Below are positions 12,764 through 46,159 of a stretch of 64,000 nucleotides of DNA, piece after piece. Each line of letters begins with the position of its first letter. Position 1 is the stretch's first letter. The notes under the pieces were generated by a model, which was not told the DNA's origin, made no database searches, and was given only the letters and a program-made list of their open reading frames with translations. The position numbers and the translations under genes are program-made. The stretch lies in NCBI GenBank assembly GCA_963920665.1, contig OY987272.1, positions 18,481,001-18,545,000 on the forward strand, in the 5' to 3' direction. This DNA is from Straminergon stramineum. Lineage: Eukaryota > Streptophyta > Bryopsida > Hypnales > Calliergonaceae.

Positions 12764-13984
12764 GTACTTTCACAATGCCAACCTCAAAGGTGACATATCG
12801 TACTGTTGTTTTCATATTTTGAATTAATAAGTCCACAGCCCTTGGGTGTAATTAGATCTGAGAGAATCTTATTGGAGCAAGTGAGAGAGGATTGACTAGA
12901 GAAAAGGAAATTTACTATTGTAAAGGACTATCTTCCAAGTACAAGTAAGTTTTTCCGTTTTATTTTTTCAATTTTTTGAAAGTCTGTACAATTTTGCGTG
13001 AGTGTGTTAGATTATTTTATTTATCATAGAATTCACCCTCAAGACTAGGATACTTCAGAATTATTTTGCAAAGGTCAATGTTGTACACTTGTACACTCGA
13101 GTTGATCTACATCTCAAACATGCAAGTTAGTTTCAAGATGAGATGGATTCCGACATGTGACAGTCTTTGAACTTGATAGAAGTCCCATTTTCCAAGGCTC
13201 CCAAGTTCCTATAAGTCTTGTTTCTTATGAAGTGTGGAGATGCAAACTTATCAAAAATTACTCTTTTTCTCTTTGTTGAAGAACCATAATCCCAAACATT
13301 CAACAATGTATGGAAAGACATCTAAAATATGCACAAAAATTTTAATCTCCAACTTAGTGTAACATAGAGATCAGTATGCCTTTTCATGAATCTAATCTTT
13401 TGAGAACACAGTTCACTTTACACAGAGAAGATATATTTCTCTTTTGCGTCATATTATAAACCAATTTGGAAACCAATAGTAGTAAAGACTCAGTTGCTAC
13501 ACAGGTATAAGACCTATAAAAGGATCTGGGTCCTTGTCCAACAAATGGAGGTTACTATCGATGCAACTGTGTAAAGAGCAAATCTAAAAAGTGGAATCTT
13601 TTGGCCCAGTACCTTATCCACCGTATTCCAAACATCCAAACGGTTAAGAGCACCAGGCAAAATGTTGTGAATGTTGGAGTCTAGATTGCACTACGGGCAA
13701 TTATTTATAAAGAAGAGTTACTTCAGGCAAGAAAAATTGTTGAGTCTGTATCGAAGTGTGTACTTTAATTAAGACTAGTGTGCCTTGTGCCATTGCCTCA
13801 GTCAAAATCAAAGTAAAAGTATTTTTCTAATTCTTTTGTTCTTAAGAACTTTGAATTTCAATAACTTTCACACCGTAGGTCAAAATTTCACGAAAAAAAA
13901 TGCATGCACCCCTCCTTGCCAAGGGCTTTCCGACTGTACCAAGCACGTGGCTAGGGGACATGAGGTCCATGAGATCTCAACGTA
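12764..13984. other. AT-rich unique sequence, no gene seen
   Basis: Only short ORFs without recognisable features, and no repeat found. Confidence 0.45.
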
Positions 13985-14011
13985 ACAAACAAAACAAAAC
14001 AAAACAAACAA
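13985..14011. repeat. AAACA microsatellite
   Basis: About five tandem AAACA/AAAAC units. Confidence 0.9.
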
Positions 14012-14503
14012 TGTAACTTAAGATATGGAAAATTGGAAACCTAAAATTAGAGTCCATTTAATTCCTAAAGGTTTTTTACTATGTTTTTACCAAAAATGCT
14101 CCCAATCTATCATTTCTAGTACAAGTACCAAATTTTAGAAAAAAAAAGATTTTAGGACACATGTAACCATAGGATCTTGTAGTACATTGGTTTCAAAACA
14201 TGAGGAAAAAATTTCAAAAATTTCCACCATGTAGATTGCAAGATATTAGCATTTGAATTCATTTGGCAAAAATCCTTTGGGGGGCCCATCAAAAACCTAG
14301 GCAGTTGCACTTCACAAGGTCACATTTGTATGAAAAAATGTCTCAAATAGTGGTGCTTCTTTGAATTCATTCTTCAAGTAAATTTGGCTACATGCTTGAA
14401 AAATTTCAAATCATTTGGAATTGTACAACATATTGGAAAAAAATAGTAAATAGAAAGAAGTCAAGTGAATGATTCAAAATACTAAATTGTTAAGAATTTA
14501 GTT
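14012..14503. other. AT-rich unique sequence, no gene seen
   Basis: Long A and T runs, all frames closed. It ends where a family-1 leader fragment begins. Confidence 0.45.
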
Positions 14504-14916
14504 ATGGAATTCAAAGGTTTTTTTCTTTGTTTTGAAAAATTTTACTCACACCATATGGTTTGTAGGTGACAAAGGGCCCAAATTCAGTATGCTCCTCCAA
14601 GCTCCAAGAACTTCTCCAAATGACTTGAATTTCTCCCTCATGTGCAACGCCAAGTGCGTGGGCCCATAACCTATTGAGTTTTGAATGGAGAAAGGCTTTA
14701 CTTAGATGGTAGAAGATACCAAGGCCCATGTGTGGGCTGAACATAAGCTAAAAGCCTTTCACTAGTTATCCACAAACCATGTGGGATAACTAGCAACCTT
14801 GGGCTGCCTTTGACTACAAGCAACACCCAATACACTCTAAGTCTAACTAAGAGTCTAATGCTACTCCTAGGGCTGAATGTACACTATCTACACTAATATG
14901 TACATGATCTTCAACA
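14504..14916 (-). mobile_element. Inverted family-1 leader fragment, primer site and LTR (14672-14916)
   Basis: Minus-strand leader (14504-14657), primer site (about 14658-14671) and a complete 245-bp LTR (14672-14916). The LTR abuts plus-strand family-1 leader at 14917. The layout repeats that at 4615-4906: an inverted 5' end with its body missing, joined directly to a plus-strand element. Confidence 0.87.
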
Positions 14917-27647: not shown

Positions 27648-27996
27648 GTATGGACTGAAATCAATTTTTTTCATGCTAACAAAGCTATTTCTTATGCTAC
27701 AACCCGTATGCAAGTTTTTTTGCTTCAGTAGTCTTGTTCATGGCAACCACATGTTCTACAAGACATCATGGAGGACAGGCTTGCATTTAAATGAACATCG
27801 AAGTCGACACCTGTCTAAACGTGCATATAGTGGATGTTATGCCGACAATAGCCCTTTCTATTCCTCTGCAGATACTCTTGCTCTATTTTATCAATGACAA
27901 ACCCTATTCACTATCGTCTACCAAAGTAGAAGTTTTAATTAACTACATTCGAGTCCTTGGTAGTTCTTCAAAATGTATGAATCTGGTGGACCATTC

Positions 27997-28022
27997 AAGG
28001 CCTTATTCATTAAATTGAGACA
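27997..28022 (+). repeat. Left terminal inverted repeat
   Basis: It begins AAGGCCTTATTC and ends TTAAATTGAGACA. It matches the reverse complement of 46106-46131 at 25 of 26 positions. Confidence 0.8.
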
Positions 28023-28066
28023 AGCTGTGGTCTCATTTTAATTCACTTCTATATTTAGAAAACAAA

Positions 28067-28112
28067 AGAGTTCATTAAATTGAGACAATTCAGTAAATTG
28101 AGACTTCAAAAA
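28067..28112 (+). repeat. Subterminal AAATTGAGAC repeats
   Basis: Two further copies, TTCATTAAATTGAGACA and CAGTAAATTGAGACTTC, follow the left end within 110 bp, and weaker ones lie near 28235-28260. A related TTTTGAGACTTTG occurs just inside the right end on the opposite strand. Such arrays usually bind a transposase. Confidence 0.6.
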
Positions 28113-28543
28113 TTTTGAAGTACATATTTAATTAATTTACTATTGCTATAAATAGTAGGAAGAAGCCGCATTCATCTTTTGAACATTTTTATTTCATTAA
28201 AAACATACACTTTAAATCATGCAAGATGTCATCAATTGAGACATTTCTTGAAATTGAGAGGTACATCTATGAAAGGACTAATCTTTAGATTGTTGATACC
28301 AAACTTTAACATCTAAAACATCTTTATTACAAAATATTCAAATGAATACACTGAATGCAAAACATTCAAGAAAAATAAGAACATAAAATATACTATTAAT
28401 AGACATCAACAATTGCAACTCAATCACACTACCCTAATAAAATGGACAAAATATATTTATGCGAACATCTCAAAACATGTAAATGCAAAGTCCATGGCAC
28501 TTCACACCCTACAACAAAAACTACTTATATACCTACACACTAT

Positions 28544-31393
28544 TCATCCTTCTGCCATAGACTCATTGTCGTCTGAATTAGCTATGAAGGCTTCCACTGA
28601 TGCTTTGATGATGTCAATTTGTGGCTTTGGAATTGCCACCCTTGGATCTGAAGTCCCCTCTCGCATACGTGGTTTCCAAGCGGTCATGATACAGTTTGTG
28701 CTCAACCATGCTGGGGTTATTGCTCGATCTTCACGCCACACATTCCCTTTTTTTGTGTCCCATCCATCATATGTTTCCATGTTAATGTGTCGATCTGAAG
28801 CTGGCGTCCAATATTGGATTTGGATCATATTTATATGCCTTGGATCCGGATTTGGATTCGTAATGGCTCTAGCAAGCCATAATGGCTTTGAGTCACCATT
28901 AGCAGGCCGCACCACGACAAAATAACCTGCAAACGTATCGCGATTAACACGGAAAGAAGCACGGGGACGATCACGCCTTCGTCCAACAAAGGGTGCATCC
29001 TCTGCATCCCCTTCAGGTAGTGTACCATCCCTCTCCCTGCGTTCTTCCTCATCATGGATGATCCTCGAAGCCAGCCAAAATCCATGTAGTAATGTCTCAC
29101 ATGGCTCTAGAGGTGCATCAAGAGCTGCTCGAACACCTTTCCAATACTCTTTTATAGGGCCATTTTTCCTCCTGAATTCTCCAGATTGGTCATCATCTGC
29201 CATTCCGCTCCAATGTGCAATGAAGCCGTTCAAACCTCTCTTGATCTCATCGAGAGAACGCATCTTCTCCGGAACTAGAGGTGGTGGATCACCGCTTGGA
29301 AGTATTGGACGTCCATCTTCAGTCTCAGACCACAAGCGGATTCCTTTGCCGTGCTCTGGCAACCATTTTTTGTCCGTACACAGGTTTTTGTACTCCATCA
29401 AAGGCCATCCACTAGAATCCATGTAAAACTTGAACTGTTGGGACCTAGAATGACCTTCCAAGAAATCTCCTCCTGTGCCCAAATACCCATCTACATATTG
29501 TTTGAAATCAGGAACTTCCTCGATGAGATGAGGAATGACGGGGTGCGTTTCGCAATCCATGAAGGATTTCATGAGTTTCGGAAGTGTTGGATAGTTGTTT
29601 GTCTTCAATTTAGTGCTCCATCGACCAAAAAGAGCATCAATGTCTTCATGAGTGTGCCCAACAATGAGGAAATTGATGTACACTTTGCGGAAAATCCCTT
29701 TGTATACAAGTAGGGAACAAAAAGCAAAAACCCATCTATTCTTATTGTCCCTTGATGCATTATCCAACTGCAAAGTCAATATTGGTGGTAAAGGTTGAGC
29801 TGGAATTGCTTCTTCCGGAGGAGGAAGGAGAGAGTCCAAGCAAATATCTGCCTCTTCTAGAATTGCCTTCGTTAATGTGGATTGCATCTCCTCTTCAGAG
29901 AATAATTTGCGCGATGAATTCTTTGGTGGTTCTTCAACATCACGCAACAACTTCGCGATGGACTCGATGGTATGATTTGAATTTGTCGGAAAAATGTCTA
30001 AACCGTAGTGTGCATATCGAACATCCCCATGCCCATGAGCAATCATACCCGTAACTGCAACGGGCATTTTCATGTAGGAATCCGTTGATTTAGTTTTGTG
30101 AGAGAAGTGTGGAGAAGCAGTCTTGGAGTGATCCATTTTATCATGGATAATGGTTAGCATCTTCTCAGGATATGTTTCAGAAACATGTCGATTTGCATAG
30201 TACAATTCTCTATGGGCCCTTTGGCCCACAAGGTGGGTATCCAAAGCAACGGACCACCTCTCTTGCGCGTACGAAAGGGGAGTGCATGTGCTCCTCAATA
30301 GCTTGTATCTATCACACAAGCCACATCGAGCGAAACTATCACCACGTGCTTTCGGAGCAAATTCTGGGAAAGAAGCACGTCGAATGTTGCTCAAGCCACT
30401 CGAAGAAATTGGTTGCAAATTTAAAGTTGCATTGGCCTCATTAATTTTTGGTAATTGATCACTCCACCTAAATGCAGATGGCAAAACCATTGCAGGGACT
30501 TTCTCCCCTGATTCCAGTGTCCTCGTTTTGTGTGGCATTTTGTCAGCTTCAGGAACCACTAGTGTCCGAAGTGTTGCAATAGCTTGCATAGTATGTTTCC
30601 GTGGTTTCTTAGACCCCAAATTCCCATGCGCCTCTGCTTGCTTCCCATCCTTCGCCATGTCTTTGTACCTATAAAAGGTAGCTTTCGAAATCCCATGAAT
30701 GGTCCACCATGCAGTGGGACACACTTCTCTCCCTTTCAAGGTAATCCACTCTTTGCCAACAGGATCTTTGTGTATCTGCCTATGTACCTCAAGAAGACAC
30801 TTTTTCCGAGCATATACCCCATCATTTACATGGAGTTGAGAACGAATGGCTTGAATTTGCCCACGTGGAAAAGGCTGCAAACAATTGTTTGGACAACAAA
30901 TTTTGGTAGAGACTTCAGTGATCGCTTGAGGAACCAAGAGGATCTCTTTTTTGGGATAATTAGGCTCCATTCTCTCTCGAAAGCTTTCATAGGATCGAAC
31001 CCCTTTACGAACTCTTCTATTAGTAGCATTCATGGCCGTGTTGTAAATATGTGTCTGGTCATGGTCATACAAACTGACACCAAAGAGAAAAACTCGCTTG
31101 ATGTGCCAGGAGTGAATTGACCACATCCACCCGGTTGGGACTTCTGCCTCACACAAGGACTGTGCAATTTGAACAGAAACTCGATCATCGCCAAGAGGCT
31201 TCCCATCGCTGTCTACCACAACATCTGGATCGACACTTTGTAAGATTGCATTTGCAACATCGTCCCCTGCTTCATTACGGAGAGTGACTGGTTTGAAGTT
31301 CCATTTCGCACGAGGAATCCCGTCACATGTGCAGACATCAGGGTGTAACGTAGGCACCGGGTTCGCAAAATCTTCAGATCCGTGAATATCCAT
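28544..31393 (-). CDS. DDE-type transposase-like protein, DUF7869-like (949 aa)
   Basis: This long intact ORF is the probable transposase of the inverted-repeat element. The start is the ATG at 31393, just after a CCCGCAG acceptor. The C-terminal half contains His-Asp-Lys-Met-Asp-His-Ser-Lys (near residue 437), then Leu-Gln-Leu-Asp-Asn-Ala-Ser-Arg-Asp-Asn-Lys-Asn (near 560), then Val-Gly-His-Thr-His-Glu-Asp-Ile-Asp-Ala-Leu-Phe (near 600). These three acidic blocks match the pattern of DUF7869 proteins, which are widespread in protists and early plants and look like RNase H-fold DDE enzymes. An N-terminal Cys pair (Cys-Cys-Pro-Asn-Asn-Cys) and a Cys-Gly-Leu-Cys motif could bind zinc. A strong donor GTAAGT at 33007-33002 on the minus strand suggests a non-coding first exon and a 1.6-kb 5' intron full of dyad repeats. 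The function as a transposase is inferred. Confidence 0.75.
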   Translation of the reverse strand: MDIHGSEDFANPVPTLHPDVCTCDGIPRAKWNFKPVTLRNEAGDDVANAILQSVDPDVVVDSDGKPLGDDRVSVQIAQSLCEAEVPTGWMWSIHSWHIKRVFLFGVSLYDHDQTHIYNTAMNATNRRVRKGVRSYESFRERMEPNYPKKEILLVPQAITEVSTKICCPNNCLQPFPRGQIQAIRSQLHVNDGVYARKKCLLEVHRQIHKDPVGKEWITLKGREVCPTAWWTIHGISKATFYRYKDMAKDGKQAEAHGNLGSKKPRKHTMQAIATLRTLVVPEADKMPHKTRTLESGEKVPAMVLPSAFRWSDQLPKINEANATLNLQPISSSGLSNIRRASFPEFAPKARGDSFARCGLCDRYKLLRSTCTPLSYAQERWSVALDTHLVGQRAHRELYYANRHVSETYPEKMLTIIHDKMDHSKTASPHFSHKTKSTDSYMKMPVAVTGMIAHGHGDVRYAHYGLDIFPTNSNHTIESIAKLLRDVEEPPKNSSRKLFSEEEMQSTLTKAILEEADICLDSLLPPPEEAIPAQPLPPILTLQLDNASRDNKNRWVFAFCSLLVYKGIFRKVYINFLIVGHTHEDIDALFGRWSTKLKTNNYPTLPKLMKSFMDCETHPVIPHLIEEVPDFKQYVDGYLGTGGDFLEGHSRSQQFKFYMDSSGWPLMEYKNLCTDKKWLPEHGKGIRLWSETEDGRPILPSGDPPPLVPEKMRSLDEIKRGLNGFIAHWSGMADDDQSGEFRRKNGPIKEYWKGVRAALDAPLEPCETLLHGFWLASRIIHDEEERRERDGTLPEGDAEDAPFVGRRRDRPRASFRVNRDTFAGYFVVVRPANGDSKPLWLARAITNPNPDPRHINMIQIQYWTPASDRHINMETYDGWDTKKGNVWREDRAITPAWLSTNCIMTAWKPRMREGTSDPRVAIPKPQIDIIKASVEAFIANSDDNESMAEG

Positions 31394-33007
31394 TCTGCGG
31401 GCTAGAGCCAACTAGTGAATGAGAACAATTATCTTAGATACGATAACCACACATGATCGTCTGAATGTGTCACACTCAATTTCAAACAGAAGACTATATG
31501 AACTATACGTTATACACAATCTATTTTGAATATATTACAAAGAAAACTCTTATCCTCAAACCGATGTGCACTCATAATCAATTGGAATTGTAGATAACAC
31601 AAATCAAATTGGCTGACACAATAATCACAAAATACATATGTCTATCCTCGAACCGAGGATAGACTAAAGAATTGTCTTTAATTCAGAATTTGTAACGACA
31701 AAACGTTTCCTCTTGAATAATTTCTAAATGTACTAGCTCTTCATCTAAAGTAATTAATTTAGAAAGACTTCAAGACCTAACACAAAAATATCATCGGTCC
31801 AATAATGGGCAAGAACTTCTGACTATTTCTAAATGACGTAGAATATGACTCTTCATTACCTATCAAGCTCTTAGTGATGTACGACTTAGAATGTGACTCT
31901 CGAATTTAGAAATGGGTATCATCGACTCGACGATAATCATGTGTGACACCAAAAAGGTAAAAATTCTAACATTATCATATCAAGGTCTTATCGTCAATAA
32001 CGATATACAGAAGATATGATTTGTGAATATATAAATTTCACGTTCATGAGTAAATAGATAATAAGACTAATGCATTCCTAAATAAAATAATTATCATCGA
32101 GTCGAGGATACCAAAACCTCTAAAAGGGCATAAAGGCTATCATCAAGTCTAAGACAAAGTGTCAAAGACATTACAAGGAACACCAACAAAACATAGTCGA
32201 ATAATGTACGGAAGCATACTATATTTTATAAACTCAATTCATAAAACAAATGAAAATTAGAGGATTATGCACGAAGACAATATGAATATCATTGAGTCGA
32301 CGATAACTTCTTGAGAAGAAATTCATATTAATCTTCCTTCGTTTTAATATAATTTTAAGTTCCATTCATTTGATCGATAATACAGAATTTTCATGAAACT
32401 GTGACTTATCCTCGAGTCAACGATAAGACAATTACAAAAATCCTTTTCTAAAATATTTTACAATTATTAAACTAGGGATCCAAATTAGATGACTTTCATA
32501 TCGTCGAATCGATGATAAATCGTCCTGAAATATAACCCTTCCATTATTGGACCTTAAGATGGATATCATCTTTAGGAATATAAAACTATGACCCGTCTTC
32601 TTGTCGACGATAAAAGCCACATACTATTAAATTAAATAGTTATCGTTGACTCGAGGATACGATGGATGAGTCTCTGGAATCGACGCAGTTCTATCTTCTT
32701 TTGGATTCTACAATTCTCAATTACATAATGAGTTCTCTTGATATCGTCGACTCGAGGATATACTCTATATTGATATAATATAGGATCCTCCGTAATTCTC
32801 GGCTAAAATATCGGGAGATGTGTTCCTCACCTTCTCGATGACGCACAACAGCAACACTCTCGCACGACATAATATCAATGAAATTTCTATGTTTCACTCT
32901 TTTGCTAATGAAAGTACTAATCAAAAACAATAGGGATGTAAGGTACAACAATAACAACGCGTAGTGCATACTATATAAGTGAGAAGTCAAGGCACAATAC
33001 TACTTAC
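31394..33007 (-). other. Proposed 5' intron of the transposase-like gene
   Basis: It is bounded on the minus strand by CTG|GTAAGT at 33008/33007 and CCCGCAG directly before the start codon. No coding frame crosses it. It holds eight clear copies of the 19-bp dyad and several degenerate ones. The intron model is inferred from splice consensus only. Confidence 0.5.
31643..32760. repeat. Dyad cluster 1: TATCNTCGANTCGANGATA
   Basis: Nineteen-bp imperfect palindromes begin at 31643, 31917, 32092, 32287, 32407, 32499, 32641 and 32742, with a decayed copy at 31989. Arms are TATC(C/G/A)TCGA and TCGA(G/C/T)GATA around one central base. Spacing is 92-274 bp, and the sequence between copies is not repeated. 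Confidence 0.9.
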
Positions 33008-33433
33008 CAGAAACTGCAGTCAATATACGCACTCGTCTTCTTAAAGCTCCCACTACCGATACAAGCCTATTGAAAACCAAAGGTGGGTTGGAAATGCGGA
33101 GATCAAAATGTCGAAGCGTCCTACACGTTAGAGATGAGCAACAAAAAATGAGAACAACCAAATGGCATGGCTGTGCAGGCAAAACAAACTAAGTTGCGAC
33201 GTGAAAGTTGCAAAGGAGAGAGCTTGAGCTTCCGACAATCGAGGGGCGGGGAAGAATTGGCACGGGAATTCAAATTCTTTGGAAATACATGGCATCTGCC
33301 AACGTTCAGGGTCCACTTTTTGTGGCAGCACTTAAATGCCTCTTTATGTGCCGCTTTCTGTCAGCTTTGCGGCATGAAGATGCGGCTGAAGAACAAAAGT
33401 AGCCCCAGAAGGGTTTCTCAAATACCAATCCAG
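33008..33433. other. Possible promoter and first exon region of the transposase-like gene
   Basis: Minus-strand sequence upstream of the proposed donor. Only short ORFs occur, with no clear TATA box. It is less AT-rich than its surroundings. Confidence 0.3.
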
Positions 33434-33650
33434 AAAGGCTTCACTAAGACCAGCCAAAAAAGGCTTTACTAATACTAGACCAAAAGGCTTTACTAATACC
33501 AAATAGAAAAAGTCTTCGCTAATACCAACCGATAACAGTCTTTGCTAATATCAACCCAAAATAGTCTTTGGTAATATCAACCAAAAAAAGTCTTTGCTAA
33601 TAACAACCAAAAAAAGGCTTTACTAATAACAACTAAAAAAATTCGTTCAT
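33434..33650 (+). repeat. Minisatellite, ~24-30-bp units, about eight copies
   Basis: Imperfect tandem units of the form AAAGGCTTTACTAATACCAACC, with variants AGTCTTTGCTAATA. Non-coding. Confidence 0.85.
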
Positions 33651-33818
33651 TTATAGTCTATCTGCTATTCATGTCATTGTCTTCATTTTTTCCCTCATTA
33701 TTAGGGGATTCCTAATTACTGCTTCTTGGCTTATACTTTGTCCGGTGTCAGGGTTTCTTAAAAAATCCTTCCCTCGACAGTTTGGGATCCTAATTCTCTA
33801 CAATGTAGGGTTTACGCC

Positions 33819-33857
33819 TTAGGGTTTAGGGGTAGGGTTTAGGGTTTAGGGTTTAGG
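33819..33857 (+). repeat. Interstitial plant telomeric repeat (TTTAGGG)n
   Basis: About five TTTAGGG-like units, three of them perfect and consecutive. The reverse form CCCTAAACCCTAAAC occurs at 34321-34335. Short runs like this act as telo-boxes in plant promoters and 5' regions, but may also be junctional filler. Confidence 0.9.
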
Positions 33858-35399
33858 ATTCTGAACAATTCCAAATTTGTAGGGAAAAAATTAGGAGTCT
33901 CCTAAGTTTCTTAGGAGATGCAATTTATGTGAAGTTCATCGATTGATTGTATGGAAATACTCTTTAACCCCTGAAGTCTCAATGTGCTTACAAGTGACAA
34001 CATGGATTTCAGGTAGGTTCCTATGAGCTCAATTGTTAGTGATTTTTTCTGAAACTTTCTCGTAAGATATAAAAACTTATTAGCTTTGGGGGAATAGAAT
34101 TTTTATTTCAATCAATGGTCGGGAGCAAAAGATGTGCGACAATAATCTCAAAATGGGGAGAGCAGACAACAAACAAAATTCGTAAGAAATTGAAATATTT
34201 TTTTAAGGCTTTTTATTCTTGTAGATTTTATTTTTGCTTAAATGGGAAGCTTAGATTCATCCCATTTGGACTACTAATATGGAAGATATAGAGTTTCTTA
34301 TTTATGAAGCAATCAGACCACCCTAAACCCTAAACAAAAATTCTTTCATTATGAATGCTAATATCTTTCAATGTGTGAGGTCAAATCTCATGAAATTTTC
34401 TGTGGATGATCCAAAAAATGTTTGGTAGAAGATGCTACAATTAGATTCTAAGAAAAGTATTTTCTCTAATTCCTTACATGAATGCAAAAGAAGTAGAAGT
34501 TTTGAGTGGTTCATGAAAGAAAAATGACCTTGGGACTTTAGGATTGAAAAGCTTAGCATTTTAGGAACATTTTTTACTACAATATATTTCAATTCAAAAA
34601 AATTGTCAACTAATCCACAAATTGTGGACATTATTTGTAATTGGAAATGGATTAATTGGAAGACAATGATAGTGTATACATTATTAATTTAGGGTTCCGT
34701 TTGGCCCCAAATGACCATTTCCCATCCATTTCTTAAATAAAAACAAAAGCTTTAACTCAAATTATTTTTCATTGATCACTTGTTCATGCAATATTCATTG
34801 AGGACTATGGATTTGTCGATAACTAATAAAATTATTAGGGGACCCTAATGTAACGCATTCATTGAAAGGAACTTCTGTACAAAAGTTAAATAGTCTACAA
34901 ACCTACAAATATGTTTAGGACATGAAAATTAGATGTAGGGTTTGTACTTCAAGTATGAAGCTTATTCAAAGAACTCTTGAACTTCCAAAAATATTATAAT
35001 TGTCTAATTTCATGAATCCTCTCACAAAGATAAATTCTTCTTCATAAAACTAGAAGAAATCATGATTTCTAAACATATATGTCTAGAAAATATATTAGAT
35101 GTTACAAACACATCCATTCAATTCTCATGAGTTTGGGGATTTGATTTCTATCTAATTTAGGATATGGCGCCTTTTTTTAAGGTTTATGTACATTACACAA
35201 ATTAGTCTTGAACATGATGTAGGAATGAATTTTAAATCTCTAGAATGTTTTCAAATTATACATTTTTTAATGGACTCTATCTAATTTAAATTCTTTGAGT
35301 TTGTAGAATTTATTTGTTTCTTCTATATGTCGAATGAAACAAACTATGTTTTATGATCTCATTGAGGATTGTGGAGAACTTTCTTGGTGGTGTAATGAG
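33858..35399. other. AT-rich interior of the inverted-repeat element, no gene seen
   Basis: All frames are closed within short distances. Apart from the short telo-box at 34321 nothing is recognised. Confidence 0.5.
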
Positions 35400-35890
35400 T
35401 CTAAAAAATTATTTAGTTTTGGGAACAATTAAGTTGTAAGCATTGGGATTCAACTCCAACATTGACAATTCAAGGAAATTCATTTTAATGTGCTATTTGG
35501 AAGCATATTTTAGAAATCATATGCACATAAAATTTGTAGAGTATGAATTGGGGATCCCATCAATACAATTAAATTCATGAACCCTCAAACAATTTATTTA
35601 TTTATAATCTGAAAAGGAGAATTTTAGAATTTCTTCTAAATTCAAAAACATGCAAAATATTATGAATTTCATGGAGAAATTTGTTGGAAATGGAATTGAA
35701 ATGAGGTTCATATCACATATTGATTTCTATAATTTTTTTCTTCTTAAACTTTATTACCTCATTTTGGTAAATCTAGTTCACAAACATAGTGAATGCAATT
35801 TTGACTTGGTCAACCACTTCACATACTTGCACATTGGTAATTTCAGAAAAATAGGTACTTCAGGACCACCTAATGTACCTTAAACCTTCA
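35400..35890 (+). repeat. Unclassified diverged repeat, copy 2
   Basis: Ordered similarity to 8700-9180 in the same orientation (see that entry). It lies inside the inverted-repeat element, while copy 1 lies outside. Confidence 0.6.
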
Positions 35891-36790
35891 ACAATAAATT
35901 ACTCTTACTTTTTTGAGAACTAAAAGTAAACTTCTCCATTAGAAGCTTTTACTAGAATTATTACAAAGTGAAGCTAAAGTTGGATTTGTTTCTTTTACTT
36001 TTTGAACAAAGTTTATTTAAAATAATCTTCCAGTGAAGGGGCCTTACCATCTTCACTTTTATATTCTTAAATTATTAGGAAATAAAATTAGGAAAATATA
36101 CAATGTTATTGTTTTGAATAGGGGTATTAAGGGGACTGATACTAATTAATCAACATTCCACACTAAAGAAACATTTAACTTCATTGTACGTCAATAGTTT
36201 TTGGAGTGTTTCGGGGATGTACATTGGCGGAACACATTAGAATGTCTATGCCCGTAGTAAAACAAAATTCTCGTTACAATAAATCTCCACATGAAAGTAG
36301 GTAACTGATACATTCTAGGCATACATGTTTCTTTCGTTGTAGTTGGCCAATTTACAGTTTCGTAGAATTTGTACCTTGAACACCTAAACAACGCGGTAGA
36401 TGTTTTTTGGCTTATGAACATCAAAGAATTTTCCTCTGTAGGACAAATTTGCAACTATTCATCCAAGATATTGGGGGTGGAAAGGGGAGATCTTCTACAA
36501 TAGTTTGACTCCTAATGAATATTTTTGGTTTTTTTAAAGTAGATGAGGTCATACGGTTCCAAAATGCTTAATTTCTATGGTCTCCAATCTGGCGGTCAAG
36601 GGTTAAATCCTCAAAAAAATGCTTCCTTCATATAAAAGTATAACTCATGTGGATTGATAAACTGCATTGATTTATGCATTTAGGGATACTTAAAAAAAGG
36701 AACACTGTAGGTCATCAGAGCATGATGACATTTTTCCTTTTTTTTTAAACCTTTATGCTAGAGAATTAGACGACAGCTTTGGGTCATACC
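35891..36790. other. AT-rich, no gene seen
   Basis: No ORF or repeat that can be supported. Confidence 0.45.
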
Positions 36791-36799
36791 TCCTGGTTC

Positions 36800-37290
36800 G
36801 ATAGTGCCGAACCTGGGGACGAGGTTTGGTTTAGGAGGCTCGGGTGAGGACGGGCGGATCGGGTCCCTTTGGCGGCTCGGTTTAGGCCTGGGAGGTTATC
36901 TCCCTCCCCACGCCGCACCTCCCTCCCCGCGCTGCACCTCTCTGTCTGCGCCGCGCCTCTCTGTCTACTCTGCGTTTGTTGTCTGCGCCGCTGCTGTCCC
37001 CCTCTTCCTGTTCTGTTTCCGTTCTGGAGAGTTTGTTTGTGTTTGTGTTTGTTGATGCAGGTGGTGTTGGTGAGTGCGCTGCAGCTGTGCGTTTATACTT
37101 TCTCGAGTGTTAGCGATTTCAAAGTATTTTCTCTGATTTTCCTGTGAATGTGAATGTGAGCGGGAGGTCATTCCCTGTGAGTGTGAGTGTGATCTAAGTG
37201 GCGGACTTGCGGAGTTGCGGAGGAGGGTTTCTGATTCTCTGTGGTTTCCCTACATCGTTTGAGGTGCAACTTTGTTTCCATTTCAGTTTG
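36800..37290 (+). promoter_or_regulatory. GC/CT-rich block, probable 5' leader exon of the ParB-like gene
   Basis: Composition switches sharply from AT-rich to a C/T-rich then G/T-rich block with no convincing coding frame, and ends at TTTG|GTGAGTATAG (37290/37291), a strong donor. The next good acceptor, ACCAGACAG at 38525-38533, sits 5 bp before the first ATG of the ParB-like gene. The layout suits a promoter-proximal non-coding exon. Transcription start is not identified. Confidence 0.4.
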
Positions 37291-37589
37291 GTGAGTATAG
37301 TTTTAGGGTTTCCATTTCATTGCAATTTTTGAAGTTATGTGCTTGTTTTCTCACTTGTCAGCGATTTCTCTATCAGCAATTTCTAAAATTTTAGGGGTTT
37401 GGGTTTGAATTAGGGTATACAAGGATTTCTTTGATGCTTGGATTTGTTGTTGGGAATTTCTTCTTAGTCTTCTACTGTTTGTTTTCACAGTTGTACTCCC
37501 AGAAATTTTGTATAGAAGATTGTTTGGAGCAGGTCCAAGAATTTTAACTTCCAGGTTTGTAATTCTGCTCAATCTTCTTTTACTATTAT

Positions 37590-37619
37590 TTAGGGTTTAG
37601 GGTTTAGAATTAGGGTTTC
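37590..37619 (+). repeat. Telo-box run TTTAGGG
   Basis: TTTAGGGTTTAGGGTTTAG followed by ATTAGGGTTT, within the proposed 5' intron. Confidence 0.85.
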
Positions 37620-37656
37620 AACACATAAACTCTGGAATTCACTGATTATATGAGTC

Positions 37657-38359
37657 TATCCTCGACTCGAGGATATGTATCCTCTAGTAGAGAATAAAGT
37701 CAAAGCGAAACTTCCAAAACTCACTCTCACAGTACATAAGATTCACCCTCCAATCCCACAACAAGATCCATCTTAACGTGTAATTTGATGCCTGAAATTC
37801 TCGATCAGTCAAAGTGTTATCGTCGGATCGACGATAACATAGCCTGTACTGTCATGACGGTTTCTACATAGAACGAAAATAAACAGCTCCTTTAATGTTT
37901 ATTCATTTCTTTATGACCAGAAACGAATGGAAAACCGTCAGGAAGCCAATATTCATGGCTAAAATAAATTGTGAAAAGATGAAATCGCATATCCTCGATA
38001 CGATGATAACTGAAGCGATATATGAAACCAATGCCAGAGAATTTTCAATACATGAAAATTTACAGGCAATATCAGTATCACTTCATGACCATCATCCACT
38101 TTCTCCTCATTTAGAGACACCGATACAAATATTTACTAAATCAAAATACTGACGATCACTTCAGAAACTAACCATTATCATCGACTTGATGATAATGGAA
38201 TATGGAATTTTCGTCATAGAATTTCTAATGCTAAGTTATAGAAACAAATATTTTATTCTTAGTCAAAATCGTGAACCTGTAACCCATAATTCCTAATTGA
38301 GGTTAATGTCAAACACTCATTTCCGATATTTGGAGTCGTTTATCCTCGATGCGATGATA
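37657..38359. repeat. Dyad cluster 2
   Basis: Copies begin at 37657 (perfect dyad), 37818, 37990, 38176 and 38341, at a regular 161-186-bp spacing, inside the proposed 5' intron (37291-38533) of the ParB-like gene. Confidence 0.9.
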
Positions 38360-39960
38360 AGTCCGTCATTCTTATCGGGGGATGACAAAAAAAGAATGTT
38401 AAGTATTTTGTAAGGACATTCAACAGTAACGATCATCAAACAAATGTTACTGTAGGAAACTAGATGCCAGTTTGGAACATGAAGCAAAAATGAGTATACT
38501 GCTCACATCTACGTATGCATGTTTACCAGACAGGTAAAATGGAGCAGGCGGATAACTACGATTATTCTGCGACTTCACATCATCTTCAACCATTCGTAAA
38601 TCCATCGAACACTGAACCCTTCATCACTGAAATGGAGGACACGTATGGGACGCTTTGGGAGTTTAAGGAGCATATCCACACGTGGAGTTTTGGTGTAAAC
38701 AGGTGGAAAAGTTATGTCTACCTTCGCTACCAAATTCTGGGGACAACAATCTACATCCCCTGGAATATGAAAGAGAAAGTGACCCTCATAGAGGAACATC
38801 ACGGGAACTATGTCGTTATAGTTCTCCGGGAAGTGGATGAGAATGGAAACAATATGGGCCACTGTCACTCAATTGTCATCAACGTGAACTCACATCACGG
38901 AAAGTTTGACTTGGATAATCTCATGGCTTTTCTGGAGGGGTCACAAATGGAGTCTCTCAACCAAGAATTTCATAAGAACGGATATGTTCCTTGGAAGAAC
39001 AGCACCGCCAAATCGAACGCGACGCGACTACGGCTGATTTTTCAGACATTGGATCGATACGCATTGGAGAATGTCGAACAAAGGCCGGCACTTGGTCGAC
39101 AAGAGTCCCAAGCTAGAAGACAAGATTTGGATTCTCGTCCAAATTAGTCGTCTGGAACTCCTGGATCAGGGAGAAAAGGCAAAGCACCTGGTCAAGCCCG
39201 ATCAGAGCCAAAAAGAAAAGGCTCAACCGCTTCCGGAGGTGTTGAGTCTAGCAGGAAAAGGAAGAAGAGTCTTCCGACTGGAACTGCACCTACAGGCAGT
39301 TCCGGGTCAGCTTTGACAACAGTTTCAGCTAGCCCGTTAACCTCCGAAGTACCGGAGAAGGACTACGAGAGATTCGCGGTTCTCCAAAGAAATTTTTGGG
39401 TAGAGCACAGGCCATGCTTTCTGCTTGACAAGGAGACCATCACTGTCGACATTAAGCAATGTATTATTGCTTCTGACCAGTACGTAATTCGCACCCTGCA
39501 GAGGGACATAGTTGAGGCCGTCAAGAACGAACTCATCCAGCTCATCGATATTACGCAGCGCTAGAAGGTGTGTTTAACACCTGTGGACAATAAAAATCAA
39601 CTTCTGAAAAAGAAACCCGAGAACTGGAAAGAGATTGAAAATGGGAAATTCATGATTATTAATGGCCAGCACAGTATTACCGCCTCAAAAGAGCTCCAAA
39701 AGTCAGGTTGTGGAGAGGCCAGGAGGGTGCAACTGCAGAAGTGGGATGCTTATATTGTTTGGACTCTAGACCATAACAAATTGAGGAACATCTCAAAGTT
39801 TTACAACTGTACAAACCATCTGGACCACGCGCAGCCGACATGGGGGAATCAAATCATTAGTTGCCGTAATATTTGGCTGGCCTATAAACGTCCAACTGAT
39901 GATCCCACTGAAGATGCATGCAGACGTAACAAGGCGGTGTTCAATGTCAACAACTATAAG

Positions 39961-40156
39961 GTAAATATCTTTCATTCTATCGTATCGTCGATTCGATGAT
40001 AGCTCATCCTTCTTGTAAAATAGATCTTATTCTCATGATGACTAGGAACCCCGTAAAATGTGATGTACAGAGCTTATTCCGATTATGTTAGATTTATCCT
40101 CGAATCGAGGATAATATAAATTTCATTAGAAATTGACGTCAACTCTGGTGCCGCAG
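39961..40156 (+). other. Intron 1 of the ParB-like gene, with dyad pair
   Basis: It has GTAAAT...GCCGCAG boundaries, 196 bp, phase 0. It contains two dyads, at 39983-40001 and 40095-40113 (the second perfect). Confidence 0.75.
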
Positions 40157-41482
40157 AGTTTTACAGGGGCTGTCATCGAGAGATTTCAAAATATAAATCC
40201 TGAAAAGGATGGCGCTTCAATTGGTGGAACCACGGATCTGAAGAATGAGATTCAGATAATAACTTTGCCAGATGCGCTGTGGAAGCACTGGGAAAGCTTT
40301 CTAACAAAGCATTCCGCGGGGGAGCTGACTGATCCTGTTTCCCTATCAAAGTTTAAGGATATCAAGGGATTCAAAATCAAAACAATGTCACTGAAACGGG
40401 AGTTTTTCAAACATTGTGGGCATTTTACCGATAAGGATTTCGGAGTCTTTGCACAACACCTGCTTGGAGAAACTCCGAAACGCCAGGCCTTGTATCCTAA
40501 GGTCTCAGTGTCGAGAACAAAGGTTCTCGTGCCGGACAACCTTTCTCATGGAGATTGGGTAGAGAGGAGGAAGCGGAAGAAAATTGTTCTTCAGGATTTA
40601 ATGGACATCAAACCCGCTCTGGTACTCACCAACACAGCTGGCGATGTCGACGACAACGTGTGGAAGCCATGGAAAGCGAGGCACAAGTTCACGTCAACAT
40701 CATGGGACTTCTTGATCTCGCACCCAAAAGCTGAGTATTTCAAAAGACGTCTCAGAAACGACGCCTGGTTGAAGCGTGCGAAGGATCTCCAAAAACAATT
40801 TCCGGAGGTTCTTCACATGTTTACACAATTCATGAAGTTGAAGTATTAGCTTCCAAACCAGGTCGGGGGGGTCCAAGTCCGAGGAATCGATATGACTACG
40901 AAAGCACTGGTGACAAGTACAAATTACCAGTATCACAATCGAGAGATAAACCTCGCTGTCCTAGATGCTAGAGAGCTTCATAGAACCACTCCTACAGATA
41001 CTATTGGCGCAATTCAGCCTGCGCTGGATTTCCTTCTTCAAAAATTGAGTCCAAAGATGACTGAGCCGAATGTTTGGCTCTTCATTTTGGAAGATAAGGA
41101 GGACGTCAAAGTTGCAACTTCTTTTGCATCCAAGAATCTCCAGCAATATGAGCATGTTCTTTCTACATACGTTCCCAGCAAAGCGGAGATGCTGAACAAC
41201 GTCTCGAATTGAGGGACTGCTCCTAATGTGCCTCTCCTCTTTCTTTTTAAGAAAGATAATGTTTTTGTAAGCGCCACTCGTGAGTTACTGAAGTCCAAAT
41301 ATGACACGCCCTCGAATTGCGTGTACTATTTAGATCCCTCAAAGAACACGGAGGCGAAGTGGAGGATAGAGGCCAGTGAACTCAGAATGGAGTTCTACTT
41401 AGACATCCTGCATGCGTTTGCCAAGCCAGAGGAAAATGTCCTCGGTTTGTATTCGGGGGCAAAATTCATGCTCGCTGCCAAG

Positions 41483-41644
41483 GTATATTTCCATACTCTA
41501 GGCTAGGTATCATCGACTCGAGGATAGCTTTCCTGTTTTGTTGTTTTATTTGAATTTTTGCCGTATTGTTAAATCCTTCATTTTATCCTCGACTCGAAGA
41601 TACTATCCACCATCATGGACCAATCCATTGTGTGATTCGTGCAG
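41483..41644 (+). other. Intron 2 of the ParB-like gene, with dyad pair
   Basis: It has GTATAT...CGTGCAG boundaries, 162 bp, phase 0. It contains two dyads, at 41508-41526 and 41584-41602. Confidence 0.75.
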
Positions 41645-42652
41645 ATGTTCGGAGCATACTTCTACGGCTTTGTTGACAAGGATGAGGCGAAATCGTATCT
41701 GAGAATTTCATATGTGGTGAAGAAAATGGACAAAAACGATTTCATGTTCTCAAATTCGCCCTATTCTCTGTTATACGAGAAACCACAAAGTCGTGGACCT
41801 GTCATTGTTCATTCGAACTCGCCTCCGTCGCCACCGATGACACTTGATTCACCGGCTGCAACTGTCCTTCCCGTTACCAGAGAGAGAGAGACGGTGGGTC
41901 CTCATGTCTGTAATGACCCGAGCGTGGAAGGCATCGATGAATTTGGAACGAATACGTTTCAAATTCATTCTTGGATGGCAACTTCAGTCACGCCTCCATT
42001 GTTGCAAACTACCAACGATGAGGAGGACATCGAGACGGATTCGGAGTTCGAACGCGAGAACCTGCAGCTAGCGGTGCTTCCACAGAGAACGGCAAGGACC
42101 GAGGCGGAGACGGAAGTGATCATGAACGAGGTGTTCGGGACCGACGACATCCCCATCATTGATGAACCACGGCCTTCCCAAAGAATGCCTAGGCGGATAT
42201 CGGAGGAGGTTGGGGTTATCATCATTAGCGATGATGATGATATTGATCATCCCCATTCCTCGGACGATGACGAGGAGGAGGAAGGCATTCCGTCGGTGAC
42301 GGAGATGAAACCTGTCGTGGCACCCTCGGGTGTGGTCATCAAGGTGGAGAAGGATTGGTGGCAGAAGGACAAGGAGAAGCGAGAGAGAAGAGTCGCACGG
42401 AAGGCGGAGAGGGAGGCAAAGGAGAAAGAATTGGCAGATGCAGTTGCGAAAAATGCAGAGACAAATGCCAAAATGCTGAAAATGCAGGAGGAGTCGCAGG
42501 CTCAATTCTCTCAGCTGAACAGTCAAGTCGCATTGCTCTTGGAAGCAATGAATTCGCAAAGCACCCAATCTCAAGGCAGCCTCCCTTTCATTTTTAGGGC
42601 TCCAGCTCCTCAATCTGTGCCTTCGATAGTCTAAGGTCCTGTCTTGTAGGAA

Positions 42653-43147
42653 ATGCAACCTCCCATACCTGTAGTCTCTTATCCTCGAGTCGAGGATACC
42701 CAGGACTGTGTGTCCCTTGCGCATGAGGATCTGGTCAGCTCAACACCAGCATCCCAACTGCCAAGGGTTTCCTCTCCAGATCAAGCGGCATTCGAAGTCC
42801 TTGTTCCTGGAGGTGTGGATGTCTCTCATGCAGGAGAAGAAAGAGAAGTTCCACAACAGTATCATCGAGGCGATGATAAGGGCGATGTGGAATCAGCACC
42901 TGTTCCACAAGCACCTGAAATGGAGACACCGGTGTGCGGGACGTCGTCTCAGGTCGTGGAGTTGCAATCACCTTTATCCGCAGAGGAAGAAAGGGTCGAC
43001 TACGAAGCGAGCGAGGACGAGACCCATGATAATGTGGTAGAGGAGATCCAAGAGGAGCCTCCTACTGCAGCACCAGTGGGAGGGGATGAGCCTCAGGAGC
43101 ATGGATCCGCTCAGGTACAACTCTCTGACCCATACGGTTTCGATTGA
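42653..43147 (+). CDS. Acidic ORF with two embedded dyads (165 aa)
   Basis: This ORF is in the same frame as the ParB-like gene but separated from it by a TAA (42632) and a TAG (42647). It is rich in Glu, Pro, Ser and Val, probably disordered, and ends near a CAG|GTACAA donor-like site. Two dyads at 42680-42698 and 42861-42879 are read in frame, encoding Tyr-Pro-Arg-Val-Glu-Asp and Tyr-His-Arg-Gly-Asp-Asp. It may be the true C-terminus of the preceding protein, or the dyads may mark an unrecognised intron. Confidence 0.4.
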   Translation: MQPPIPVVSYPRVEDTQDCVSLAHEDLVSSTPASQLPRVSSPDQAAFEVLVPGGVDVSHAGEEREVPQQYHRGDDKGDVESAPVPQAPEMETPVCGTSSQVVELQSPLSAEEERVDYEASEDETHDNVVEEIQEEPPTAAPVGGDEPQEHGSAQVQLSDPYGFD

Positions 43148-43615
43148 GTCGAAAAAACTTGCAGTCGATCATGTTGTGTGTATGAAGAGTAGGGACATGG
43201 CTTTGAGTAGACATCGAATCTCATTTGTAATCATGCTGCGTGGCAGGATGGTGTGGCCACTCGTTGATTGCTTCTGCGTGGACTACGTATACGTTTGCGG
43301 CTCCTTCTCGTGTAGTCTAGTGTACCATAGTTTTGTTAGAATAGATTTGGCGACCCTATTTGAAACAGAAAATTTTCACCTGTATCATGTAATCTATGTA
43401 AATAAAATATGCACATTTTTCAAATATCCAGTAGTCTAATTGGATCCTCTTTTTGATGTTTTGGGTGACCAGCTCGAAAAACCTGAAAGTGTGCACCGCC
43501 CATTGCCAATGAAAGCACTTCCTACTGGGAGACCACAGTCGATTAGTGGAATTCAATGCATCTCTCCCCTTTCTGGCTCACCCATTTCTGCGTTTAATCA
43601 GGTAACTTCATTTCT

Positions 43616-44479
43616 TTGTTGTTATGCTCTGATCAAGTAGTAGTGGAGGGCGGAAGAGAGATCGTGCCCAGGAATGTGCCTCCCAGTCTTCCTCCACCGC
43701 GGAGGAAGTGGCTGAACATTGTCTTCGACTTGAATGGCATACTCTGTCAAACGGCGATGAAGTCCTACGGGGAGAAATTCAAACCGTACAAGCTCGAAGA
43801 CAATGTTCTCTGCCACAGAAATCCCACGATCATCGGACCCAAGGCGGTATTCGCTCGGCAAAATCTGGGCGAATTCCTTCGAGAGGTGTCCGCGATCGCC
43901 GATAGGATCTTAGTGTAGACAACGATGTTGAAGCGTAACGCAAAACCCATCGCTGGACACCTGTTCAACGGTTGTAGAGTGCCCTACGATATATTAAGTC
44001 AGGAACAATGCAAAAAGATAGAGTACTCACCGGGAAAGTTCTTTCATCTCGCTGAGCAAGTGCATTGTATGAAAGTGCTCTCCGAGACCTTGTTCTACAA
44101 TCCGAGCGGAAGCACGTCCTTCACCTCGGATAATACGCTTCTCATTGACGACTCTCCGAACAAGAGTGTCTGCAATGAGAATGGGAATGCTATATTCCTA
44201 GACTCTTGGAGGCACCATAATCGCAGGGACGACGTCCTCATGGGGGAACTCCTGCCATGGCTCAGACGTCTAGATTTGAATTGCCAACCGGGCCAAATGC
44301 GGACATACGTCGAGGAAAACCGCATTGGTCTGAACCCATTGGGAGCGGGGGACTACAAGGTGCACCACCTCATAGACGCGATGAAAGAGTCATCGAAGGT
44401 CATGGGTTCTAGATACGAGCTTCCTGGAATAGGCATAGTCATAGAGCGAGGCCGACGGAGGAAGTACGCTGTAAAGTAG
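43616..44479 (+). pseudogene. FCP1/NIF-type HAD phosphatase-like, one in-frame TAG
   Basis: This protein has the haloacid-dehalogenase fold type of C-terminal-domain phosphatases. Motif I is Val-Phe-Asp-Leu-Asn-Gly-Ile-Leu (canonical Asp-X-Asp-X-Thr). The Asn-Gly variant also occurs in a plant subfamily, but loses the second Asp. The late motif is Asn-Thr-Leu-Leu-Ile-Asp-Asp-Ser-Pro-Asn-Lys. Between them the TAG at 43916-43918 falls exactly where relatives have the Trp of the Val-Val-Trp-Thr/Ser motif, so a TGG-to-TAG change is likely. Both halves share one frame. The ORF is open from 43616 and its first exon is unclear, with a donor-like CAG|GTAACT at 43600. Substrate unknown. It is cargo of the inverted-repeat element. 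Confidence 0.6.
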
Positions 44480-44697
44480 ATTAGCTCTTGATGTGAGATA
44501 CCGTTTTGTGTATAGTCCTCAATTTGTACGCTAAGATATTTTGTAAATAATATATTGAGTTCGCATTTTCCTTGAACCTTTGCCAAGTGCTTGGGGGGTT
44601 CACCATCCATGTCTCCCATTCTCGATTGATGTTGCTTTTGCATTATATTTATTCGGCGGTGTGTAATGTGGATGGGCTTGTTGATCATGTACTGCAG

Positions 44698-45618
44698 GTT
44701 GGAGGCGTTCGCTTCATTGAACTGCCGAAAAGGCAAAGGCTGACCAGGAGTCTGCTCTCCGGATCCGAGAGGTCGCTCTCCGACCAGTCAGAATCCGAAG
44801 GAGGGAGTTGCGACACGATTCTGTATTCCAAGCCATACATGTTGCGATCTGCCACGGACGCCGCATCTGCGGCCATAGACTATTCCAAGGGGGACGTGGA
44901 AGAAGGCGTTGTGGACAGCCCCCCGAGTCGCGGACCTGTTAGGACTCCCATCTGCTCTCCTTCGCCGCTGAAACGGGCATCCTCGACACGAGGGGACTCG
45001 TTCTCCCCTGCTCCACGGACCGATGCTGCAACCAGTCGGAAACTAGACCTACCACTTGACGAACCGGCAAGTCGTTCTCGGCTCGAGGATGCACTTCAAT
45101 CATCGCTCGCCATTCAGCACCTTCCTAATGACATTGACGGACGTAAGGCAACACCTGGGGTCGACCGTGAGACAAAGAGTGCATTGTCCTTGCCCACGAC
45201 TAATGCTCATGGACCTCGGCTCCAAGATAAACAGCCTCGTACCTCGCTGTCTGCTGGAGCTAGACGATCTCCTTCTGCCGACACTCTCTTCCGGCAACGA
45301 ATTTTCAGAGATCAGAGGCGGTCGCTGGTCTCCAAAACAGCTGGTGCTCGACTTCCATACGTGGACAATGTCAATGCAACACTATCGAGGTTGCCTCCTC
45401 GAGGGTCAAAATCGCTTTCTACTTCAGAGGTGCCTCAAGCTACTCGAAGGCCAAAGCGGAAAGACAATGGATCTCAAAGTTTGGATTTGCGCGGCACATT
45501 GGACGGTGGAAGTGGGCGACACTATCATTCCCGACGCGATGATATCTTTAAAGGGCTAGCAAAGATAAAAGCAATGGAAGCAACTAAGAGCAATAGTACA
45601 GCCAATAGCGATGCCTAG
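44698..45618 (+). CDS. Ser/Arg-rich ORF, terminal exon (~306 aa)
   Basis: The ORF is not recognised. It opens after a CATGTACTGCAG acceptor and ends in TAG 45616-45618. The product is rich in Ser, Arg, Pro and Asp with no hydrophobic core, so probably disordered and possibly nuclear. It lies 220 bp after the HAD-like gene on the same strand. A GCT|GTAAAG donor-like site just before that gene's stop would allow the two to be one transcript, but this is conjecture. It is the gene closest to the right end of the element. Confidence 0.4.
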   Translation, partial: VGGVRFIELPKRQRLTRSLLSGSERSLSDQSESEGGSCDTILYSKPYMLRSATDAASAAIDYSKGDVEEGVVDSPPSRGPVRTPICSPSPLKRASSTRGDSFSPAPRTDAATSRKLDLPLDEPASRSRLEDALQSSLAIQHLPNDIDGRKATPGVDRETKSALSLPTTNAHGPRLQDKQPRTSLSAGARRSPSADTLFRQRIFRDQRRSLVSKTAGARLPYVDNVNATLSRLPPRGSKSLSTSEVPQATRRPKRKDNGSQSLDLRGTLDGGSGRHYHSRRDDIFKGLAKIKAMEATKSNSTANSDA

Positions 45619-46105
45619 TGGACCAACTCAAGTTTATGAAGCCAAATGAACTTTGGGGTCTCATTTACTATTAATAGCATAGAAAATAATCACAAAAAAA
45701 TACCTAGAGTAGTTCAGTATTCTTACATGTATGGTAAGCCTCCTTGTTTCTACTTACATTCTAGGCAATCGTTTGCCTTCATAATTCAATCACTTCAAAG
45801 GACACTGTGAACAAAAAGTTACATACTCTTTGTGTATTCGATCTCCCAAATAAGTCGAACATATTGAACTGAAATTCACTTGCATTTCATTTTTTCCAAG
45901 GGCTTTGGTACATTTTGTGAATGAACTTCTTAATATCTCCTTTCAGGAATTATTGTAATCGATGCAATTCGACTTACTTGTTTTAAGTCATTTGAATCCA
46001 ACCCTTATCCGAAACTATGTATCCTTGGTTTTTATCGTTGGGTTCAACAACTATTACCTAAATGAAGCTTCGCACTCGTTTTTCAAAGTCTCAAAATAAC
46101 CATAT
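45619..46105. other. Right subterminal region of the inverted-repeat element
   Basis: Non-coding and AT-rich, with one TTTTGAGACTTTG-type motif on the minus strand close to the end. Confidence 0.5.
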
Positions 46106-46131
46106 TGTCTCAATTTAACGAATAAGGCCTT
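46106..46131 (-). repeat. Right terminal inverted repeat
   Basis: Reverse complement of 27997-28022 with one mismatch at position 13. Confidence 0.8.
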
Positions 46132-46159
46132 ATTCATTCAATGTACTAAGACGTTGTAG

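Follow-up and report, generated by a model that had tools for sequence, protein, structure and literature searches.

A dispersed array of 19-bp dyads and a gene of predicted ParB fold in a large DNA transposon of a moss

We analysed a window of 64,000 nucleotides from the moss Straminergon stramineum (contig OY987272.1, positions 18,481,001 to 18,545,000). It contained a complete copy, called W here, of a large transposon with terminal inverted repeats (TIRs). W spanned positions 27997–46131 of the window (18,135 bp). Its left TIR, AAGGCCTTATTCATTAAATTGAGACAA (27997–28023, + strand, 27 nt), formed a 96% pair with the right TIR (46105–46131, − strand). Comparison of the flanks showed a 4-bp target-site duplication (TSD), ATTC, at 27993–27996 and 46132–46135. 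The element carried a transposase gene on the − strand and, on the + strand, a spliced gene of predicted ParB fold (gene 2) and a phosphatase homologue (gene 3). A 19-bp dyad was dispersed through its interior in 19 copies.

Eight of the dyads were located upstream of the transposase (dyads 1–8: 31643–31661, 31917–31935, 32092–32110, 32287–32305, 32407–32425, 32499–32517, 32641–32659 and 32742–32760). Five were located upstream of gene 2 (dyads 9–13: 37657–37675, 37818–37836, 37990–38008, 38176–38194 and 38341–38359). Four were found in gene 2 introns: dyads 14 (39983–40001, about 22 nt inside the likely donor) and 15 (40095–40113) in intron 1, and dyads 16 (41508–41526) and 17 (41584–41602) in intron 2. 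Dyads 18 (42680–42698) and 19 (42860–42878) lay within a conserved reading frame of the exon 3 region. Distances upstream of the mapped gene starts were 51–1427 bp. When the window was scanned against TATCNTCGANTCGANGATA, 10 sites showed no mismatch, 9 showed one, none showed two and two showed three (at 32138 and 37678), and every place with ≤3 mismatches fell within 31643–42878. No site with 0 or 1 mismatch turned up in twenty simulated 64-kb windows (dinucleotide Markov). The array of 19 dyads is genuine and greatly exceeds chance expectation. Decayed sites were also recognised by their spacing in other copies of the element, designated by letters. At 32138–32156 (3 mismatches), copies C and F had a 2-mismatch site likewise 46 bp beyond the dyad-3 equivalent; at 32594–32612 (4 mismatches), copies B and C had a 1-mismatch site likewise 47 bp before the dyad-7 equivalent. 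The array had been described in an earlier sequence-only reading of the same DNA. On recomputation, 18 of its 19 coordinates were exact, and the last dyad, placed at 42861, was found to start at 42860. Three of its other descriptions held: the fully symmetric dyads 9, 15 and 18 (37657, 40095 and 42680) have the identical arm TATCCTCGA, the DNA flanking the dyads is unrelated from site to site, and within the window all dyads are enclosed by the TIRs.

The half-site was TATCnTCGA, mirrored around one centre base, with a free fifth base. It had been claimed that changes at position 5 are usually matched at position 15. The counts did not bear this out: 7 of the 19 sites were paired, with 6.3 expected after shuffling (P 0.45). 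In 96 sites of W, B, C, F, G, H and a fragment, the number was 35 with 31.5 expected (P 0.25). Position 5/15 is a free base within the half-site and not a compensated pair. The lack of covariation made an RNA hairpin less likely and favoured recognition of each half-site, as DNA, by a protein. The fifth base differed between lineages. It was A, C or G at every site of the W-like copies, T in 17 of the 23 sites of copy D, and C at all five sites of a foreign locus, L123, described below. In the large copies, 138 sites together showed 122 departures from the consensus, and 47 of these were C>T or G>A changes in the two CpGs. Such CpG-type decay would match methylated DNA.

The position of sites was compared in seven copies (W, A, B, C, D, F and G) at ≤2 mismatches, with copy H and the fragment, L039 (4 kb, 78% to W), left out and with approximate exon limits taken from protein matches. 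In these copies 129 sites were found. The region upstream of the transposase contained 54 and that upstream of gene 2 contained 33; intron 1 of gene 2 had 12, intron 2 had 9, and 11 were in or after exon 3. The remaining 10 fitted no category (9 in copy D, 1 in F). None of the 129 sites was located in the transposase, gene 2 exon 1 or exon 2. In copy D (G000:C1, about 19000207–19016024; L012, L013), the alignment with W beyond the left end was limited to patches of genes 2 and 3, and a transposase search gave no match. The copy had TIRs, a perfect TSD, homologues of gene 2, a phosphatase gene that was open, and 23 dyads, most of them T-type. As in W, dyads stood both ahead of gene 2 and within its introns 1 and 2. 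Conservation was measured by comparing the eight W sites upstream of the transposase with random 19-mers of the same alignment region. Site identity exceeded the background in copy B (0.921 vs 0.853, P 0.023) and copy C (0.921 vs 0.839, P 0.014). In copy G, which among the alignable copies is the most diverged, the values were 0.836 vs 0.638 (P 0.0003). Copy B (G000:C1 from about 4982470; L008, L009, L027) was 89% identical to W in its left half and 67–72% in its right half, which suggests a chimera formed by modular exchange between subfamilies.

A perfect 4-bp TSD was seen in W, A, C and D, and also in G as judged from its flanks. W-type ends were present at both termini of A, C, G and, in diverged form, D, and at the left end of F and H; no right end was found for B or F.

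A genome-wide scan, which the sequence-only reading had proposed, was run with the pattern at ≤1 mismatch. It returned 1911 sites in the 326-Mb genome vs 2 for the reversed control pattern. Whether hits cluster in related elements, as that reading had asked, was examined for the first 50 exact sites of contig C1 (to about 22.5 Mb), the sample out of the 1911 genome sites on which family restriction rests. They came from 19 loci, all of which belonged to the family: seven large-element copies, one fragment and 11 miniature inverted-repeat transposable elements (MITEs), with no non-element locus among them. The large copies and the fragment accounted for 39 of the 50 sites. The isolated dyads examined are MITE copies and not host DNA. 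The MITE was 255 bp long, had ends of the same kind as the large element, and no gene was seen in it. Since the first MITEs had been found via their dyad, a second search used a dyad-free MITE stretch, in which the best 40 of 800 candidates were scored and 39 were fetched, the query copy being excluded. All 39 of these best matches had the 19-mer or a decayed form at MITE bases 44–62. Sixteen dyads were perfect, and 21 of the 23 imperfect ones were changed at one or more CpG bases. A perfect 4-bp duplication was found in 27 of the 39. As far as examined, the dyads belong to one family of large TIR/DDE transposons, apparently of mosses.

The array was also found outside this genome. The pattern was scanned against 257 billion bases of prokaryote genomes, which gave 39 loci, and against IMG/VR, which gave 8. 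One of the 47 loci, L123 (CADCWO010000074.1), had more than one site at ≤1 mismatch. It is filed in the cyanobacterial metagenome bin AVDCRST_MAG81 and encodes a gene 2 homologue, P0132, 41% identical to that of W. Four dyads upstream of gene 2 and one in intron 1 reproduced the anatomy of W. L123 is most likely mis-binned moss transposon DNA. Its protein stands in public databases as cyanobacterial.

Predicted proteins of gene 2 homologues often read past exon 1 into intron 1, and these tails were compared with the dyad. Among 78 homologues (P0132 of L123 included), 33 had a recognisable exon end, which 26 of them overran by more than about 10 residues. The dyad was matched at 0 mismatch by ten of these 33 tails and at one by seven, with 0.0 and 0.06 for shuffled tails; examples of dyad-spelling peptides are YPRVED, YPRLED and SSTRR-stop. 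In 45 further homologues from a later profile search, one of 16 tails fitted at 0 mismatch and nine at one (null 0.0 and 0.07). The one-mismatch tails were not independent, as 3 of the 7 and 8 of the 9 belong to a related group, G/SI[VI]AS. The ten no-mismatch tails placed the intron-1 dyad 6–10 residues from the exon end. Whole proteins with a no-mismatch window numbered 15 of 78 and 5 of 45 for the gene 2 homologues and 1 of 99 for the transposases. The sole transposase window, in P0001, was close to the N-terminus, at a point where upstream DNA may have been read as part of the frame. The array is genuine, has the look of a functional feature, and recurs in diverged copies and in another species.

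Gene 2 exon 1 (38515–39960, + strand) encodes an N-terminal domain and the ParB-fold domain, with two in-frame stops in W. Its end was placed at a likely GT donor at 39961, and the piece that was folded covered 38515–39969. The predicted model had the ParB fold, with ParB, Noc and KorB among the best fold matches. Exon 2 (40151–41503, + strand) has approximate boundaries and in-frame stops in W, and the exon 3 region (41645–43144, + strand) has conserved reading frames and an approximate structure. In the homologues, the NGQHS and AS columns were nearly invariant. ParB carries GERRxxA at the corresponding motif, and ParB nucleotide-binding motifs were not recognisable in gene 2 by sequence. 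An NCBIfam scan of one gene 2 member and a profile search of PDB sequences gave no ParB, and no ParA-like match was found among 13 element frames scanned with Pfam. The proposal that the dyads are protein-binding sites linked to a ParB-like protein was partly supported.

The transposase was an open frame of 955 aa (28544–31411, − strand) whose sole Pfam match was DUF7869. This is a domain of unknown function with named relatives in mosses. The predicted fold was RNase H-like, of the integrase/Mos1 type, with an RNase H-like/DDE-type domain at residues of about 405–624. With its TIRs, a TSD of constant length and this predicted domain, the element is a DDE-type TIR DNA transposon. Going by the model, DUF7869 very likely represents a DDE transposase family that makes 4-bp target duplications. 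Further copies of TTGAGAC near the left TIR, at 28080, 28098 and 28236, are possible candidate sites for the transposase. A protein search showed DUF7869 relatives in the laboratory moss Physcomitrium patens; none of the gene 2 homologues among those listed was named as from this species. Transposase and gene 2 homologues occurred on contigs of equal size (46150, 460842, 80586 and 556257), which suggests linkage of the two genes in other genomes as well.

Gene 3 (43616–44479, + strand) is an NIF/SCP-like phosphatase homologue split into two frames in W (43616–43918 and 43925–44479). PF03031 matched the second frame at 1.7e-4 and the open copy D homologue (L013:6498–7310) at 4.7e-12. The phosphatase motif reads DLNG in W and D, and the usual motif of this family is DxDx. 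The AT-rich spacer of the element contains a 26-bp tandem repeat and short plant telomere-like TTTAGGG runs (33456–33663, 33805–33860 and 37583–37618). Elsewhere in the window, 8753–9288 and 13761–14515 recur inside or beside other element copies or MITE loci at about 70–83% identity and are probably other repeats of the genome.

For the dyads, we place about even confidence in the explanation that they are sites for an element-encoded dimeric protein that controls the element in an anti-silencing role. Binding, the identity of the binder and the direction of its effect are what we infer from the observations above. The likeliest binder would be the ParB-fold product of gene 2, a gene with sites in its own upstream region and introns, both in diverged copies and in another species. 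By occupying these arrays and the one upstream of the transposase, the protein would control how the element is expressed. Activation or anti-silencing would be the favoured direction, in which CpG-containing control regions are kept clear of host methylation and heterochromatin. It is favoured because the MITE, in which no gene was seen, has a single near-end site, which would be useless as a repressor site. A bolder form, which we offer tentatively, is that the ParB-fold protein and its parS-like array act as a sequence-specific licence. The protein would load at about 20 dyads, spread and block host silencing, with an origin independent of the Arabidopsis VANC proteins discussed below. MITEs would exploit the licence via the single dyad beside their shared end, and half-site versions would diverge by lineage, each protein serving its own copies.

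Several results weigh against an anti-silencing protein encoded by gene 2 and acting at the dyads. The tracing of sites to loci covered 50 of the 1911 in the genome. The sites of copy F were not significantly more conserved than the background (0.901 vs 0.870, P 0.20). The MITE dyad was not better conserved than the MITE body (0.943 vs 0.969). Its presence in 39 of 39 MITEs together with this lack of extra conservation implied that the founder carried the dyad, and no selection was visible after insertion. A requirement for the founder's mobility would be one explanation, and hitchhiking would explain the MITE dyad equally well. For the protein, a Pfam scan of 45 gene 2 members gave no ParB model and no family above the cut-off. 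No DNA-binding helix-turn-helix domain was identified in gene 2, where the VIA alignments stop near residue 440. W itself is a decaying copy, because CpGs were lost at many sites and gene 2 has in-frame stops. The intron-1 dyad was absent from the VSFYSN-tail group (P0123, P0139, P0156, P0162, P0178, P0180 and P0185), and the longer tails of P0101, P0102, P0127, P0133, P0172, P0218 and P0222 had no dyad at ≤1 mismatch.

The dyads could instead be operators of an autorepressor. A ParB-fold protein similar to KorB or Noc would load at dispersed palindromes, spread and repress its own promoters, limiting copy number and damage to the host. KorB of plasmid RK2 is a ParB-fold clamp and repressor, and its OB operators are located from 4 bp to >1 kb upstream of target promoters in the available part of PMC11790492. 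This range resembles the 51–1427 bp measured in W, and KorB and Noc were among the fold matches of gene 2. Autorepression leaves the MITE site and the gene 2 intron sites unexplained, however, and the unrecognisable nucleotide-binding motifs also count against it. We regard it as unlikely, although it keeps some weight.

It is doubtful that the dyads are accessory sites bound by the DUF7869 transposase or a transpososome factor as internal enhancers of transposition. The MITE dyad starting at base 44 would suit such a role, but the ends have their own repeated TTGAGAC motif and the W dyads lie kilobases away from them. Moreover, copy D retained gene 2, gene 3 and 23 dyads with no transposase match. 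Slightly more doubtful still is a recognition site copied from the host to obtain tissue expression. Placement upstream of genes and in introns would suit any transcription factor. However, none of the 19 loci traced from the first 50 exact sites on C1 was a non-element locus, and the site versions differed among copies within one genome. An RNA-level signal is very improbable. A dyad hairpin in intron 1 or the 5′ leader acting on splicing or stability would agree with the near-fixed distance of the intron-1 dyad from the exon end in the ten no-mismatch tails, but not with the independence of positions 5 and 15 or with sites up to 1.4 kb upstream of gene starts. It is hardly credible that the dyads are functionless leftovers, multiplied within the elements by gene conversion or as a mini-mobile repeat. 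CpG decay in many copies and the unremarkable conservation of MITE dyads would fit, but this reading is disfavoured by the above-background conservation of sites in three of the four diverged copies compared, by the anatomy that copy D and another species share with W, by the L123 sites and homologue tails, and by the unrelated flanks between dyads.

The anti-silencing explanation was compared with known systems. To our knowledge, factors that counter the silencing of their own element are encoded by only a few known transposons, the best studied of them in flowering plants. The discussion of PMC10398659, as far as its available text goes, agrees. The nearest in arrangement are the VANDAL transposons of Arabidopsis, VANDAL21 with VANC21 and VANDAL6 with VANC6. 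In the accessible portions of PMC5735166 and PMC10398659, the VANC protein of the element binds its own short motif, and methylation is lost there. Each element has many copies of the motif, mostly in non-coding DNA, ahead of the transposase gene and within accessory-gene introns. The version of the motif varies between related subfamilies, and the motif is rare outside the family. These features closely resemble the moss layout, which is built of unrelated parts. The two systems also differ. The VANC motif is a 9-mer in one orientation and in tandem repeats, whereas the moss element has a 19-bp dyad with unrelated flanks. No ParB fold is described for VANC in those portions of text, whereas gene 2 has a predicted one. 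Binding and loss of methylation are proven for VANDAL, whereas for the moss element we infer both.

Assignment of the moss element to VANDAL was rejected. Its transposase has DUF7869 only and is not of the MuDR type of Mutator-like elements (MULEs), and its TSD is 4 bp. MULEs have TSDs of about 9 bp. TnpA of maize Spm is mentioned in PMC10398659. This protein reportedly activates its own element in correlation with DNA demethylation and binds repeated CpG-containing motifs. Unlike the moss dyads, the Spm motifs are short and subterminal, and Spm is an element of the CACTA superfamily.

On the protein side, Noc binds NBS sites and ParB binds parS sites. Like these and KorB, the moss element would combine a ParB-fold protein of its own with dispersed palindromic sites near and far from promoters, and KorB may be the closest model by analogy. 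Gene 2 differs from all three in that it is eukaryotic and spliced, has an extra N-terminal domain and gave no Pfam ParB match. A further likeness was found in Sola1-1_Ec32 of Ectocarpus, a giant DNA transposon with an accessory protein that is ParB-like and a DNA methyltransferase, which the authors suggest may bind and epigenetically modify its own element (PMC12477816, in its available part). The methyltransferase sets it apart, as the gene 2 frames scanned had no methyltransferase match. A dispersed palindromic target array, which the moss element has, is not reported in that part of the paper. The 4-bp TSD of Sola2 (PMC3627910, partial text) matches that of the moss element; this likeness is by TSD alone and carries no assignment to Sola.

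No description of the dyad array system appeared in literature searches limited to an open-access library. If the explanation is true, it would represent a second, unrelated anti-silencing architecture, built on a ParB fold and palindromic sites, in another plant lineage and with MITEs bearing the same site. It would also link the bacterial biology of ParB and KorB to transposon control in eukaryotes. The array and gene 2 provide a concrete motif and a candidate protein for studying how transposons escape silencing. A transposon-encoded regulator with its own target array is an already known kind of system, and what is new here is the ParB fold and the palindromic sites.

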